Positions 44,622 to 50,156 of a stretch of 64,000 bases of DNA are shown here, piece after piece. The notes under the pieces are model-generated. The model was not told the DNA's origin, made no database searches, and saw nothing but the letters and a program-made list of their open reading frames with translations. A program made the translations under genes and the position numbers. The stretch's first letter is position 1, and the number at the start of each line of letters is the position of its first letter. The DNA comes from Halorhodospira halophila (GTDB taxonomy: Bacteria; Pseudomonadota; Gammaproteobacteria; Nitrococcales; Halorhodospiraceae), in NCBI RefSeq assembly GCF_016653405.1, contig NZ_NHSN01000018.1, forward strand, positions 98,524 to 162,523, read 5' to 3'.

Positions 44622-44978
44622 TCACCACCACAGGGCAACAACCGCGCCCACACCGAGCACCCCCGCGACACCGGCGCCGCCGTAGCAGACCCACCAGGTA
44701 CCGCGCCCTGCCGGAATCCCGAGATCGCGCAGGGTATGGTAGATGCGGTGAGCGGCGTGGCAGAGCACCAGCCCCAGCGCGAGGGCCACTGGCACCCCCA
44801 CCACCGGCCGGGCGAACAGCTCGCGGGATGCGTGGTAATCCAGTACCTCGATGCCATGCTCTGCAGCCACGGGCATCACGACGCCGGTCAGCAGGATCAG
44901 CGCCGGGGCGAGCAGCGCGGCGAGTAGGCCCCCGGCACCGAAGAGCAGCCACAGCGGCGGTTCGTGCGAACGCCTCAT
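44622..44978 (-). CDS. frdD: Fumarate reductase membrane subunit D
   Basis: A 118-residue membrane anchor with three hydrophobic spans (about 10-35, 60-80 and 98-117). LLFGAGGLLAALLAPALILLTG and VLCHAAHRIYHTLRDLG match FrdD, including the His-rich span end. FrdC and FrdD bind menaquinone and carry no haem in the E. coli-type enzyme. The ATG overlaps the frdC stop as ATGA, so all four frd genes are coupled. The 3' end abuts the GGDEF-EAL gene with a two-base gap. Confidence 0.92.
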   Translation of the reverse strand: MRRSHEPPLWLLFGAGGLLAALLAPALILLTGVVMPVAAEHGIEVLDYHASRELFARPVVGVPVALALGLVLCHAAHRIYHTLRDLGIPAGRGTWWVCYGGAGVAGVLGVGAVVALWW

Positions 44979-45373
44979 CGGACGCCTCCCAGGAGATAGA
45001 GCCACACCCCGCCCGAGAGGGCCACCGAGACCACCCAGGCACCCCGCACGACCGCCCGGTCGGTGGGCCTGCGGCCCCGCCAGCGCAGGACCGGCAGCGT
45101 CAGGGGCAGCAACCGGAACCAGGTGACAGCGTGGTAGGCGGCGGCCAACAGAGCGGCCAGGTGGAGGCCGAACAACCAGGGGCTGCCGTGCAGGTCCCGC
45201 CACCCTTGGTAGGCGGCTTCCCCAGCAGCAAGGGCCAACAGTCCGGCAAGCAGCCAGAGCGCATAAAGGCCCAGCAGGACGCTGCTGCCTTCGCGCAACA
45301 GGTAGCGGCGGTAGGCCGGATGCCGCTCCCACCAACCGCGCATGGTCGGACGGTAGACGCGCGCTCGGCTCAT
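44975..45373 (-). CDS. frdC: Fumarate reductase membrane subunit C
   Basis: A 132-residue membrane anchor. The polar N-terminus YRPTMRGWWERHPAYRRYLLREGSS is the FrdC signature and holds the conserved Arg residues near the quinone site. Three hydrophobic spans lie at about 30-52, 65-88 and 108-129. It begins with ATG overlapping the frdB stop. A two-peptide haem-free anchor indicates an E. coli-type quinol:fumarate reductase rather than a succinate dehydrogenase with SdhC/SdhD. Confidence 0.92.
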   Translation of the reverse strand: MSRARVYRPTMRGWWERHPAYRRYLLREGSSVLLGLYALWLLAGLLALAAGEAAYQGWRDLHGSPWLFGLHLAALLAAAYHAVTWFRLLPLTLPVLRWRGRRPTDRAVVRGAWVVSVALSGGVWLYLLGGVR

Positions 45374-46134
45374 TCCGATCCCTCCTGTCGACGACGACCG
45401 GGCCGCAGCCAGTCGAGCAAGTACCGCGCGCTGCTGCCGGGCTTGTTCTGATTGATGGCCCGCGCGGGATCGACCCCCTTGGGGCAGACCTCGGAGCAGT
45501 GGCCGACCAGCGTGCAGCCCCAGACCCCCTGTTCGGCATCAACCACCGCGTGCCGCAACTCGCTACCTGCGTCACGGCTGTCCAGGTTGTAGCGCTGGAG
45601 TAGCGCCAGGGCCCCGGGGCCGACAAAGTCCGGATGCCAACCGTACTGCGGGCAGGCGGCATAGCAGAGCAGGCAGTTGATGCACTGGGCGTACGCGTAG
45701 TAATCCGTCATCTGCTCCGGCGTCTGCCGATAGGTCCCCTCGGCCGCCGTCCGTTCCCCGGCCGGGATCAGGTAGGCGTGCACCGTCTCGAGCTTCTCGA
45801 GGAAGTCGCTCTGATCGATGACCAGATCCCGCTGCACGGGGAAGTGGTCCAGTGCCGACACCCACACCGGCCCCGGCGCGTAGTCGCGGAGGAAGACATG
45901 GCAGGCCAGCTCGGGTTCGCCGTCGATCATGCAGCCACAGCTACCGCAGATCGCCATGCGACAGGACCAGCGGAAGGTCAGGCTGCCATCGAGGTGATCC
46001 TTGATGTACTGCAGCCCCTCGAGCACGGACATATCCGGCGTGTACGGCACGGCATAGCGCTGCCAGCGCGGTTCGGCGTCCTGTTCCGGGTGGAAACGCT
46101 GCACCGCCAGAGTGATCCGCTGCGATTCGCTCAT
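45370..46134 (-). CDS. frdB: Fumarate reductase iron-sulfur subunit
   Basis: A 254-residue subunit. An N-terminal plant-ferredoxin-type domain has the [2Fe-2S] cysteines in SCRMAICGSCGCMIDGEPELAC. The C-terminal domain has CINCLLCYAACPQY and CTLVGHCSEVCPKGVDPA for the [4Fe-4S] and [3Fe-4S] clusters. It passes electrons from quinol through FrdCD to FrdA. The ATG overlaps the frdA stop. Confidence 0.96.
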   Translation of the reverse strand: MSESQRITLAVQRFHPEQDAEPRWQRYAVPYTPDMSVLEGLQYIKDHLDGSLTFRWSCRMAICGSCGCMIDGEPELACHVFLRDYAPGPVWVSALDHFPVQRDLVIDQSDFLEKLETVHAYLIPAGERTAAEGTYRQTPEQMTDYYAYAQCINCLLCYAACPQYGWHPDFVGPGALALLQRYNLDSRDAGSELRHAVVDAEQGVWGCTLVGHCSEVCPKGVDPARAINQNKPGSSARYLLDWLRPGRRRQEGSE

Positions 46135-47903
46135 GCCTGCGCCTCCCCTTCAGCGCCGTAGGCCCGCCGCCGCGGCGCAGAGCGGGTAACGGTCACCGGC
46201 GCATGGTCGATCACGGGGCCCGTCCCGTCACCGGGGTAGGCCAGGGTATGAACCAGATAGCGCTCGTCATCACGCTCGCTATAGGCGTCATCGCGCACGT
46301 GGGCGCCGCGGGACTCCTTGCGTGCCCGCGCCGACCAGGCCATCGCCTCAGCCACCTGCAGGCTGGCCCCGAACTCCATCGCAGTCAGCCACTCGGTGTT
46401 GTATGTCCGGCTGCGGTCGTCGAGGCGGATGCCGCGTCGCAGGCGCTCGCGCAGCGCCGCCAGCGTCGTGCACGCCTGCTCCAGGCCGGCCTCGTTGCGA
46501 AAGATCCCCACCCCCTGTTCCATGGCCCGATTGAGATCCGCGCGCAGCGTAGCGAGCCGCTCGCCCCTGTCGTTGCGCAGCAGTTCAAGCCGCGGCGCCA
46601 GGGCCTCGGTAGCGAGCTGCTCCACCACGCGCTGCGGCCGCCGCGGTGCCTCGCGGGCGTACTCGGCGGCCGCCTCTCCTGCCGCCCGGCCGAAGACAAG
46701 GAGTTCCGCGAGCGAGTTGGAACCGAGCCGGTTGGCTCCGTGAATCCCGGTGCTGGCGCACTCCCCGGCAGCAAACAGCCCCGACAGGGGGGCGGCACCC
46801 CGGACGTCGGTGGGAATCCCCCCCATGGTGTAGTGGACCGCCGGACGGACGGGGATCGGCTCCCGAACCGGATCCACTCCGGCGTAGCGGCGAGCCACCT
46901 CGGTGATCATGGGCAGCCGCTCTAGGATGCGGTCCTCGCCCAGGTGGCGTAGATCCAGCTGGACTGCCGTGCCCTGCGGCGTGGGCACGGTCCGGCCCGC
47001 CTGGTCCTCGTACCAGAAAGCCTGGGAGAGCCGATCCCGCGGCCCCAGCTCCATGGCTTTCGGACGCGGCCACGGTTCGGTGGGCCCGAGACCGTAGTCC
47101 TGCAGATAGCGACGATCATCCCGGTTGGTCAGGACGCCGCCCTCGCCCCGGCACCCTTCCGTGATCAGGATGCCACTGCCGGGCAGCGTGGTGGGGTGCC
47201 ACTGAACGAACTCCATGTCGCGCAGGGGCACCCCCTGGGCGTGCGCCATGGCCATGCCCTCGCCGGTCACGATGCCGGCGTTGGTGTTCTGCCCGTAGAC
47301 CCGCCCGGCCCCGCCGGTGGCCAGCACCACCGCCGGTGCGCCGAAGCGCACCGGCTTGCCGCTGGCGATCTCCAAGGCCAGTACGCCACAGACCACCCCG
47401 TCGTCGACCAGCAGATCTGAGCAGAAGTATTCGTCGTAGCGCTGAATCCCCGGATAGCGCAGGGAGGTCTGGAACAGCGTATGCAACATGTGGAAGCCGG
47501 TCTTGTCGGCGGCGTACCAGCTGCGCTGGGTCGTCATGCCCCCGAAAAACCGGACATGTACCTGGCCGTCCGCCTGTCGGCTCCACGGGCAACCCCACTG
47601 TTCGAGACGGACCATCTCGCCAGTGCACTCGGCGACAAAGCGTTCAACCACGTCCTGGTCGCACAGCCAATCCCCCCCGGAGACGGTGTCGTTGAAGTGC
47701 CCGTCCAGGCTGTCATCCGCCCGGGCCACACCGGCAGCGCCCCCCTCCGCAGCGACGGTGTGGCTGCGCATGGGCACCACCTTGGAGATCAGCGCGATCC
47801 GCAGCCCAGGGTCGCGCTCGGCCGCCGCGATAGCGGCCCGCAACCCGGCCCCGCCGCCACCAACAACAACCAAGTCGCACTCAATGTCTTCGATCGCCTG
47901 CAA
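46131..47903 (-). CDS. frdA: Fumarate reductase flavoprotein subunit
   Basis: A 590-residue flavoprotein. The FAD dinucleotide fold is DLVVVGGGGAGLRAAIAA. The covalent-flavin histidine lies in MRSHTVAAEGGAAG. Substrate-site motifs include HPTTLPGSGILITEGCRGEGG and HYTMGGIPTDV, and ANRLGSNSLAELLVFG closes the active site. I place the start at the TTG at 47903, preceded by GGGAGG, since the frame upstream has no better codon with a site. As part of frdABCD it reduces fumarate with quinol or, in a phototroph, may work as succinate oxidase feeding the quinone pool. Confidence 0.94.
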   Translation of the reverse strand: MQAIEDIECDLVVVGGGGAGLRAAIAAAERDPGLRIALISKVVPMRSHTVAAEGGAAGVARADDSLDGHFNDTVSGGDWLCDQDVVERFVAECTGEMVRLEQWGCPWSRQADGQVHVRFFGGMTTQRSWYAADKTGFHMLHTLFQTSLRYPGIQRYDEYFCSDLLVDDGVVCGVLALEIASGKPVRFGAPAVVLATGGAGRVYGQNTNAGIVTGEGMAMAHAQGVPLRDMEFVQWHPTTLPGSGILITEGCRGEGGVLTNRDDRRYLQDYGLGPTEPWPRPKAMELGPRDRLSQAFWYEDQAGRTVPTPQGTAVQLDLRHLGEDRILERLPMITEVARRYAGVDPVREPIPVRPAVHYTMGGIPTDVRGAAPLSGLFAAGECASTGIHGANRLGSNSLAELLVFGRAAGEAAAEYAREAPRRPQRVVEQLATEALAPRLELLRNDRGERLATLRADLNRAMEQGVGIFRNEAGLEQACTTLAALRERLRRGIRLDDRSRTYNTEWLTAMEFGASLQVAEAMAWSARARKESRGAHVRDDAYSERDDERYLVHTLAYPGDGTGPVIDHAPVTVTRSAPRRRAYGAEGEAQA

Positions 47904-47959: not shown

Positions 47960-49288
47960 TCACTCCAGATCCAGTGCCGCCATCTGTACCTTGCCGAGCA
48001 TGGTATCCGCCTGCCGTCGCTCAGCATCGGCCTCCTCAGTGCCCAGCTCCTCGGCCAGTTCCGTGAAGAGTTCGGCGAGCTGCTCAAAGTGAGGCAGGGC
48101 CGCCTCGGCGCCCTCGGCGGCGAGCACCGCCATGGCCAGGCGCTCCTGAGCGATCCCGAGAGCCCGGCGCGCCTGCGGTGTGTCCTGCTGCTCGACCAGC
48201 GCCCCGCGCACCTCGAGGGCGTGGCGGTAGGTCTCCACCGTCTCGGCCAACCCCTCCACGGCCTCCTGGACCGCACCGCAGCGCTCCAGCGCCAGCGCCC
48301 AATCCTGGTAGGCATCCGCGCTCTGCCGCTCGCGGACGATGTCCTCGCGCAGTTCGATCACCTGCCGGTAGTAGGGTAGTGCCACCTCGGCCCCCTCCTC
48401 GACCAGCACCCCCTGGCCGTAGCGACCCAGCGCAACGCTCCAGTCCCGAAGCGACTGCGCCGTGGCGTGTTCGGTGGCCAGGGCCTCGGCGAGTTCACAC
48501 CAAGCCTCATAGCAGGGCAGTGCGGCACTCGCCCCCTCGGCCTCGAAGAGCGCATCGCCCAGGCGCTCCAGGGTGATCCCCCAGTCGCGGCGCGCGGCAT
48601 CTCCCCCTTCACCGGCGCTGATCGCTGCATCCAGATAGTCGAGTGCCTCCTGGTAGATCGGAATAGCCGCCTCGGGACCCTCGTCGTCGTAGACGGCATC
48701 GCCCTGATCGGCGCGTTCCAGGCCGACGGCAAGCAACTCGGCTGGATCGCCCTCCGTCTCGAGGCCGGCGTGCGGCTGCACATCTAGCTCGACCCCCTCC
48801 TCCTCGGGCACCCCGCCCTCGGGAGCCGGGTCGACGATCACCTCGCCGTCCGCCGATGGGGCCACCTCGGCCGGCTCTTCCGCCGGCTCGGGTTCGGCCC
48901 GCTCGGGCGCCCCCTCCCCAGCCTCCGCAGCCGTGTCCGCGGGGCGCTCCAAGACGCGCTTGCCGGCCAGCCGGTGCGCTTGGCTACTCGCCGGCCTGCT
49001 CCGGGGACCGGCCTTCGCCGTCTTCGAGCGCTTCCCGGACCCCGCCGCGGACGCAGCAGCGCCAGGGCTCTTGCCCTGCTGCCTGCCTCCCGGGCCAGCG
49101 CTGCGCCGATCTGCAGCCCCGGTGCGCCGCTCGCTGGTCTCCTGCCGGTCCTCCTGGTACCAGCGGCGGATCGTCTTGGCCGCCGGCTCGTAGGTCCGTG
49201 CCAACTCTTGCGGGGTGTGCCCCGCCTCGACCAGTTCGACCAGCTTGCGCCGGAACTCCGGCGAATATTTCGGGCGACCCTCAGCCAT
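47960..49288 (-). CDS. Transposase-type HTH fused to 47-residue helical repeats
   Basis: A 442-residue intact protein of unusual architecture. Residues 1-50 (KYSPEFRRKLVELVEAGHTP, ELARTYEPAAKTIRRWYQED) match the HTH of IS3/IS911-type OrfA transposases. Residues 51-110 are basic and disordered and 115-180 strongly acidic. Residues 184-421 are TPR-like helical repeats; four consecutive copies start at 234, 281, 328 and 375, exactly 47 residues apart, with a shared core EGAxxALPxY. No integrase domain or inverted repeats are visible, so it is a domesticated DNA-binding adaptor candidate, not an IS. It lies 57 bases upstream of frdA on the same strand. Confidence 0.85.
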   Translation of the reverse strand: MAEGRPKYSPEFRRKLVELVEAGHTPQELARTYEPAAKTIRRWYQEDRQETSERRTGAADRRSAGPGGRQQGKSPGAAASAAGSGKRSKTAKAGPRSRPASSQAHRLAGKRVLERPADTAAEAGEGAPERAEPEPAEEPAEVAPSADGEVIVDPAPEGGVPEEEGVELDVQPHAGLETEGDPAELLAVGLERADQGDAVYDDEGPEAAIPIYQEALDYLDAAISAGEGGDAARRDWGITLERLGDALFEAEGASAALPCYEAWCELAEALATEHATAQSLRDWSVALGRYGQGVLVEEGAEVALPYYRQVIELREDIVRERQSADAYQDWALALERCGAVQEAVEGLAETVETYRHALEVRGALVEQQDTPQARRALGIAQERLAMAVLAAEGAEAALPHFEQLAELFTELAEELGTEEADAERRQADTMLGKVQMAALDLE

Positions 49289-49430
49289 GCAGTGCTTTCC
49301 TCCGGATCATGCGGATACGGCGAGTCCGTCGACGCGGTTACTCCAGCCCGTTTTCCCGGACGGGTCAAGAACCCTAAGATGATAACGCCGGCACCGCCAC
49401 GGACCCGACACCCCTGGAGAACGGAAACCC

Positions 49431-50156
49431 ATGCAAGCGCTGCTCTTTGACGTCGATGGCACCCTGGCCGACACCGAAGGCGCGGGCCACCTGCCCGCCT
49501 TCAACGCCGCCTTCGAGGCATTCGGCCTTCCCCACCGCTGGGATGAAACCACCTATCGACGCCTCCTGAACGCGGTCCCGGGCGGCCGGGAACGACTGCA
49601 CGACACCCTGACCCGGGAACCGCCCCCGCCCGGGCACGGCGATATCAATACGCTCGCGCGGCGACTGCACGAGGCCAAGAACCGCCTCTACGCCGAGCGC
49701 CTCAGCACCGGCTCCATCCCGCCCCGGCCGGGGATCGAGCGAATCCTTGCCGAAGCGCGAGAGCGGCAGGTGCGCCTGGCCGTGGTCACGACCAGCGCCC
49801 GCGCCAACGTCGAGGCCCTGTTCAACGGCGTGCTACCCGCCGAGTTGCAACCGGCCTTCGAGGTCTGCATCTGTGGCGACGACGTCAACGCCAAGAAACC
49901 CGACCCCGAGGCCTACCTGCAGGCCCTGCGATCACTGCGGCTCGCGGCCGAGGACTGCCTCGCCGTGGAGGATTCGGTCAACGGGCTGCGCGCCGCCCGC
50001 GCGGCCGGGATCCCGACGCTGATCACCCGCAACCGCTGGACCCGGGACGACGCATTCCCGGGTGCCGCAGCGGTCATTGATGACCTGGACCACGGACCCG
50101 ACGGCACCGCCGTGGGGATCGATGACCTGATCGCCATTCACCGCGAGAGCCGCTAG
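49431..50156 (+). CDS. cbbY: CbbY-like HAD-family phosphatase
   Basis: A 241-residue HAD hydrolase of the beta-phosphoglucomutase-like subfamily. Motif 1 is FDVDGTLADTEGAG with the nucleophile Asp, motif 2 is AVVTTSARANVEAL, motif 3 is the Lys in NAKKPDPEAYLQAL, and motif 4 is AVEDSVNGLRAA. The pattern fits CbbY, which removes xylulose-1,5-bisphosphate, an inhibitor by-product of Rubisco, in autotrophs; other sugar phosphatases of this family look similar. It is divergent from the HTH-repeat gene and its end overlaps dnaE by four bases. Confidence 0.82.
   Translation: MQALLFDVDGTLADTEGAGHLPAFNAAFEAFGLPHRWDETTYRRLLNAVPGGRERLHDTLTREPPPPGHGDINTLARRLHEAKNRLYAERLSTGSIPPRPGIERILAEARERQVRLAVVTTSARANVEALFNGVLPAELQPAFEVCICGDDVNAKKPDPEAYLQALRSLRLAAEDCLAVEDSVNGLRAARAAGIPTLITRNRWTRDDAFPGAAAVIDDLDHGPDGTAVGIDDLIAIHRESR

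Follow-up and report, generated by a model that had tools for sequence, protein, structure and literature searches.

A conserved Halorhodospira protein joining a transposase-type helix-turn-helix to a TPR superhelix is probably a regulator, yet no dedicated switch for the adjoining fumarate reductase genes

The window, a 64,000-nt stretch of Halorhodospira halophila DNA, contains on its minus strand a gene (47960–49288, ATG start at 49288) for a 442-aa protein that joins a transposase-type helix-turn-helix (HTH) to a TPR-type superhelix. The gene is supported by the ORF call and by its orthologs, its frame is open throughout, as stated in the original prediction (which left the strand unstated), and a GGAGGAAAG motif lies at 49295–49303, ahead of the ATG. 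Its GC3 of 0.828, against 0.839–0.874 in four neighbouring genes, agrees with the host-like codon use proposed earlier. By Pfam, the flanks are a divergent HAD hydrolase gene (49431–50156, plus strand), present in 9/9 genomes of the genus, and, downstream on the minus strand, frdABCD of the quinol:fumarate reductase type (44622–47903), a patchy neighbour that is not part of the unit; as had been noted, no OrfB lies beside the fusion gene. For frdA we adopted the TTG at 47903, 56 nt past the fusion stop codon, which is also the start of the 590-aa FrdA in L034 and L035; the alternative GTG at 47963 would overlap the fusion gene.

Residues 1–57 (49118–49288, minus strand) constitute the HTH. Pfam HTH_Tnp_1 covers residues 4–51 (E 6e-06, 26.8 bits versus a cut-off of 24.1), AlphaFold2 places helices at residues 10–21, 26–32, and 37–59, and the nearest relatives are IS3-family OrfAs, in line with the IS3/IS911 OrfA-like HTH first read from the sequence. 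The IS3 assignment rests on these nearest relatives, because NCBIfam whole-transposase models all match far below cut-off and rank IS66 TnpA (E 0.014) and IS630 (E 0.034) above IS3 (E 0.14), and because IS66- and IS630-type HTHs were left out of the tree described below. A plasmid search with the HTH matched 67 records, and among the 20 listed, 40–58% identical, five are annotated as IS3 family transposase and two more as transposase. OrfAs inside the genus are 42–51% identical to the window HTH, and the two tested (L044 and L045) are each paired with an adjacent orfB that encodes rve and HTH_21.

In a tree of 29 HTHs over 60 columns, built from hand-chosen rows with IS66/IS630-type HTHs excluded (21 IS loci were hand-picked and 20 retained, L022 being the same place as L045), the nine fused HTHs group together as a single clade (98/91 support), with one change of the fusion label required. 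The HTHs of two long orthologs do not reach E ≤ 0.001 with HTH_Tnp_1; they align with the window HTH (E 3e-14 for L039) and fall inside the fused clade. Residues T39, I40, R42, and W43 are invariant in 9/9 fused HTHs. Residue 42, within the recognition helix, is Arg in all nine, whereas 14 of the 19 IS OrfAs counted (the fusion of G265, described below, excluded) have Asn and 2 have Arg, and residue 44 is Tyr in eight of the nine fusions versus Val in 12/19 IS OrfAs. The alignment reveals no leucine zipper after the HTH, where residues 57–177 are modelled as disordered and are poorly conserved. Inverted-repeat searches around four IS OrfA loci, carried out for binding-site guidance, gave no clear element ends.

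The linker that follows (residues 58–181; 48746–49117, minus strand) is basic over residues 58–111 and acidic over 112–181, and is assigned as disordered from AlphaFold2 confidence (pLDDT < 50 at residues 57–110 and 114–177), charge pattern, and fast drift. Its net charge of +12 up to residue 111 and −20 afterwards reproduces the basic-then-acidic order of the original prediction. By sign, this order is kept in 8/8 orthologs, with the split point picked to maximise the contrast, which is weak in the two long orthologs (+8/−3 and +5/−10).

Residues 182–440 (47969–48745, minus strand) are modelled as a TPR-type superhelix of five 47-residue hairpins and a C-terminal capping helix. AlphaFold2, given an 8-row ortholog alignment, yields eleven long helices with a block pLDDT of 95–99. 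The helix-A motifs begin at residues 233, 280, 327, and 374, exactly 47 apart, and the self-similarity of residues 184–442 is highest at offset 47 (0.70 per residue) and offset 94 (0.62), whereas none of 1000 residue shuffles exceeded −0.22 at offsets 46–49. Of the four repeats claimed earlier, the spacing therefore holds, while the count understates the repeat number, because the model has five hairpins and a cap. The proposed shared core EGAxxALPxY occurs at residues 251, 298, and 392 but not in the copy at 345 (EGLAETVETY); a related EGPEAAIPIY is found at residue 203.

The closest solved structures to this model are the TPR domains of LGN, kinesin light chain, and Rap, the best fold match by VIA-align being 5a7d_G (Z 20.4, rmsd 3.1, 219 aligned). 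Among the matches listed by Foldseek, TM-scores are modest, with TMq reaching at most 0.43 and TMt 0.61, partly an effect of including the disordered linker in the query length. A sequence-profile search of solved structures returned one match, to a TPR protein, that is not significant (E 0.86). Pfam TPR models score far below cut-off on the window protein (TPR_12, 8.8 bits versus 30.1) and above it on the long orthologs (TPR_12 37.0 and TPR_1 33.5 in L039; TPR_1 in L040). Together, the model and fold comparison, and Pfam in the two long orthologs, support a predicted scaffold of the TPR type. The share of invariant residues is not significantly higher in helices A (54/134) than in helices B (32/108; p = 0.10), so the idea of a conserved TPR groove was dropped.

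The repeat motif resembles TPR units elsewhere in the class that we label "RDLSVS-type", whose repeats of about 47–50 residues, e.g., in the DUF4062-TPR protein of G328, have the same helix-A motif (RDLSVS/RDWSVA); unlike the fusion, the G328 protein has a DUF4062 N-terminus and no transposase HTH. TPR relatives were found in 6/369 class genomes, own included. Among the five others (L068–L072), none of the three with a scoring ORF has this HTH at its start, the true N-terminus in G335 lying outside the sequence examined, and L071 and L072 gave no scoring ORF at the threshold used.

Among 54 genomes of the order searched, the HTH part is present in 9/9 genomes of the genus of the window and the whole fusion in eight of them, own included (G000, G001, G002, and G004–G008); G003 shows the first 261 bases of the gene before its contig ends. 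The named relatives are four Ectothiorhodospiraceae MAGs and Halorhodospira abdelmalekii DSM 2110. The possibility that a sequencing error had joined two separate genes is answered by these eight whole copies: there is no assembly error. The fusion is missing from the 45 remaining genomes of the order, six of which match near the N-terminus only. By synteny in the nine genomes, the gene occupies a single locus across the genus, flanked in all nine by dnaE and the HAD gene. G010, which belongs to another genus of the family, keeps the order rnhB, dnaE, accA, tilS, has other genes separating dnaE from accA, and shows no HTH-TPR or HAD match at this dnaE locus; in the piece of G009 sequence examined, dnaE is the sole match.

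Over six ortholog pairs, dN/dS is 0.06–0.24 for the HTH, 0.52–1.05 for the linker, and 0.07–0.24 for the TPR region, and in two of these pairs the neighbours give 0.05–0.08 (dnaE), 0.09–0.11 (frdA), and 0.14–0.17 (HAD). The HTH and TPR regions are under purifying selection, and the linker drifts with its charge order kept. The two long orthologs, in G002 (L040:1325–3667, 780 aa) and G008 (L039:7856–10156, 766 aa), have two TPR arrays each; in G008 these are ~46% identical, in the same order, and span about residues 208–438 and 512–765 in the AlphaFold2 model. With two arrays beside a single HTH, the scaffold was therefore doubled, or halved, as a block.

A set of paralogs with the same HTH and different C-termini had been suggested; no such set was found in this genome, and one fusion with a similar HTH exists outside the genus, in G265. 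In the own genome, the sole other PF01527 (HTH_Tnp_1) match is below cut-off (L043:2218–4478, G000:C18) and is followed by an IS66-family transposase (DDE_Tnp_IS66, 5.8e-83), while in an HTH-only search two places came up besides the fusion gene, a fragment of 43 codons at E 0.004 and a 647-codon frame whose match, at E 0.14, is not significant. HTH profile searches at E ≤ 1e-6 matched 15/369 class genomes and 7/398 phylum genomes, the own genome being included in each. ORFs were read at some of these wider loci and, judged by frame lengths, one match other than the fusion gene sits in a long frame free of interruptions (G265, 1088). A 345-codon frame in G042, a genome of the order, with an OrfA after what reads as another transposase, was taken as a mobile-element chimera and not counted, and a stop-interrupted locus in G384 was left as found.

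The G265 fusion (L092:6837–10070, minus strand, G265:C217) has an HTH 52% identical to that of the window over 44 residues (profile E 2.2e-17), which HTH_Tnp_1 does not match at E 0.001, followed by ~290 residues of Pro-rich linker with internal repeats and then by Wzz (marginally below cut-off), GNVR, and AAA_31 matches of the tyrosine-kinase type. None of 55 other genomes searched around G265, one of them of the same genus, has this fusion; since one genome in 56 carries it, it may be recent or rare, and it is apparently independent of the Halorhodospira fusion.

Searches for mobile or defence associations of the window protein found no PADLOC defence match and no phage match, the long ortholog matching only a generic TPR model in PADLOC. 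With the whole protein, 25 plasmid records matched, 0 with ≥80% coverage, and the 20 listed among these 25 align in the HTH region only. Upstream, the fusion gene shares with the HAD gene a divergent intergenic region of 142 bp (49289–49430), in which an inverted-repeat search confined to the region found one 9-nt, 89% pair, and promoter and terminator scans found nothing. Operator-like dyads exceeding chance were absent upstream of the orthologs: in each of the nine regions, between 26 and 191 of 200 simple base shuffles had a dyad at least as long as the longest one observed. An autoregulatory operator is not claimed, despite a partly conserved block, which could be overlapping promoters.

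There is good support for the capture of a transposase HTH by a host protein. The exaptation proposed in the original prediction stands as far as it concerns a stable host protein with a transposase HTH, given the single clade, purifying selection on HTH and TPR, the dnaE/HAD flanks, and the TPR scaffold, and falls in its link to frd. We consider it somewhat better than an even chance that the protein is a domesticated DNA-binding adaptor or transcription regulator, its HTH acting on chromosomal sites and its TPR superhelix binding a partner, and we give the same modest preference, jointly with this reading, to capture of the HTH from an IS3-type OrfA in the ancestor of the genus. As a plausible mechanism, the HTH would have been taken up leaving behind the leucine zipper and orfB found in its IS relatives, and placed ahead of the long charged linker and TPR superhelix. 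The HTH and the basic half of the linker would hold the protein at chromosomal sites, with a DNA specificity changed from that of the IS ancestor, and the superhelix, at the end of a flexible tether, would bind a partner protein or peptide, thereby controlling or recruiting an activity at the bound sites. From the alignment, the changed recognition helix (R42 and Y44 where IS OrfAs usually have N and V), together with the invariant T39, I40, R42, and W43, suggests specificity. We infer that the HTH still binds DNA in a sequence-specific manner and that transcription is the output; because the leucine zipper is missing, tight binding would need another dimerisation route.

A more specific role, as dedicated regulator of the downstream frdABCD operon, is very improbable. 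The genes lie 56 nt downstream on the same strand, frdABCD adjoins the fusion gene in G000, G004, G005, and G006 (in the same order in the latter three), and no terminator-like site was found between the gene and frd by a scan that expects only 0.6 in shuffles. Co-transcription may occur where frd follows. However, the fusion gene keeps its place by dnaE and the HAD gene in G001, G007, and G008, where the contig continues past it without frd, into a convergent FAA-hydrolase gene in G001 and G008 and a convergent GGDEF-EAL gene in G007. Fumarate_red_C (frdC) is present in 5/12 genomes tested (G000, G002, G004, G005, and G006) and was not found anywhere in G001, G007, and G008, nor in G003, where the fusion is visible for its first 261 bases only; given completeness of 83% for G001, 93% for G007, and 99% for G008 (a single contig), the genome-wide absence is weaker evidence in G001. 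In G002, frdC is on another contig than the fusion gene, with no frd match within 1.3 kb beyond the gene. The fusion gene therefore does not depend on frd, and the regulation of the frd operon proposed originally is rejected as a dedicated role, since co-occurrence across relatives fails and the gene persists where frd is absent. The window gene is probably a regulator, yet no dedicated switch for the adjoining genes. As an observation on the operon itself, frdABCD is patchy in the genus, at this locus in four genomes, elsewhere in G002, and with frdC not found in four.

The remaining alternatives differ in what the HTH does. The protein could be a nucleoid-associated or DNA-tethering scaffold in which a low-specificity HTH and basic tail hold the DNA and the TPR region brings a partner, with no particular promoters regulated; we regard this as unlikely, with a small but real share of the probability. 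It would fit the basic segment behind the HTH in 8/8 orthologs, the lack of an operator-like dyad upstream of them, the doubled TPR array that enlarges the scaffold in two genomes, and the fixed site beside dnaE and the HAD gene in 9/9, although position beside dnaE may mean nothing, and the conserved recognition helix with its lineage-specific change suggests specificity instead. Distinctly less probable is an HTH that no longer binds DNA and serves as a protein-interaction knob on the TPR scaffold: loss of the leucine zipper of IS OrfAs and the similar HTH on a Wzz-like protein in G265 would agree with it, and on such a predicted membrane-type protein a regulator role is less obvious, but four recognition-helix residues are invariant in 9/9 fusions, the HTH dN/dS is low, and the basic tail is retained. 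The N-terminal similarity to IS3 OrfA might also point to a transposase relic, mis-assembly, or frame artefact without function, a reading of negligible probability that is refuted by the orthologs, with the gene whole and open in eight genomes, under purifying selection and in fixed synteny.

The adaptor or regulator that we favour can be set beside known systems. Its N-terminal 57 residues, with the HTH_Tnp_1 domain, resemble IS3-family OrfA (IS911 type), which has an HTH, a leucine zipper, and an OrfB, whereas the fusion has a long linker and a TPR superhelix and occupies one locus in the genus. The RNPP regulators PlcR, PrgX, NprR, and ComR combine an Xre-type HTH and TPR with a peptide pheromone. 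They share with the fusion the order HTH then TPR; however, its HTH is of the transposase type (Pfam gives HTH_Tnp_1 and HTH_Tnp_IS630, no HTH_3) and is followed by the long disordered linker. MalT/LAL regulators likewise have a DNA-binding domain and a TPR domain, with a nucleotide-binding module between them. In both these and the AfsR-type regulators, this module takes the place of the disordered linker of the fusion, in which no NTPase (NOD/STAND) family is above the Pfam cut-off (MeaB, 12.4 bits versus 23.1, on the TPR helices). AfsR is described as having a DNA-binding domain and a TPR domain (PMC10936776). In IS911, the specific DNA-binding domain of OrfAB is its HTH, which the C-terminal part presumably masks when the protein is full-length (PMC2909936), and in Rap proteins the helical bundle attached to the TPR rearranges once a peptide binds there (PMC3601965, PMC5131891). 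The IS911 and Rap comparisons serve as analogies, with no whole-protein homology.

Titles and abstract openings, with most subscription journals outside the scope, yielded no bacterial IS3-HTH/TPR fusion. In animals and plants, transcription factors are known to have been built from transposase DNA-binding domains. The genus's own IS3 OrfAs and the fixed fusion with its changed recognition helix form a testable before/after pair, and annotation by the HTH alone would label a conserved host gene as a transposase. More tentatively, and with considerable doubt on our part, IS3-type OrfA HTHs may be portable DNA-binding modules that bacteria have joined on more than one occasion to a long disordered linker and an unrelated scaffold or effector, of the TPR kind in Halorhodospira and of the Wzz/tyrosine-kinase type in G265. 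They would then define a class of regulators derived from transposons, whose Halorhodospira member has a TPR partner switch.

A separate observation concerns the dnaE flank. While the other aligned dnaE copies, two of them partial, have no such intein split, the G003 dnaE (L041:203–5122, G003:C140; 1639 codons) is interrupted in frame by an intein that includes a LAGLIDADG domain (Intein_splicing, 1.6e-16).
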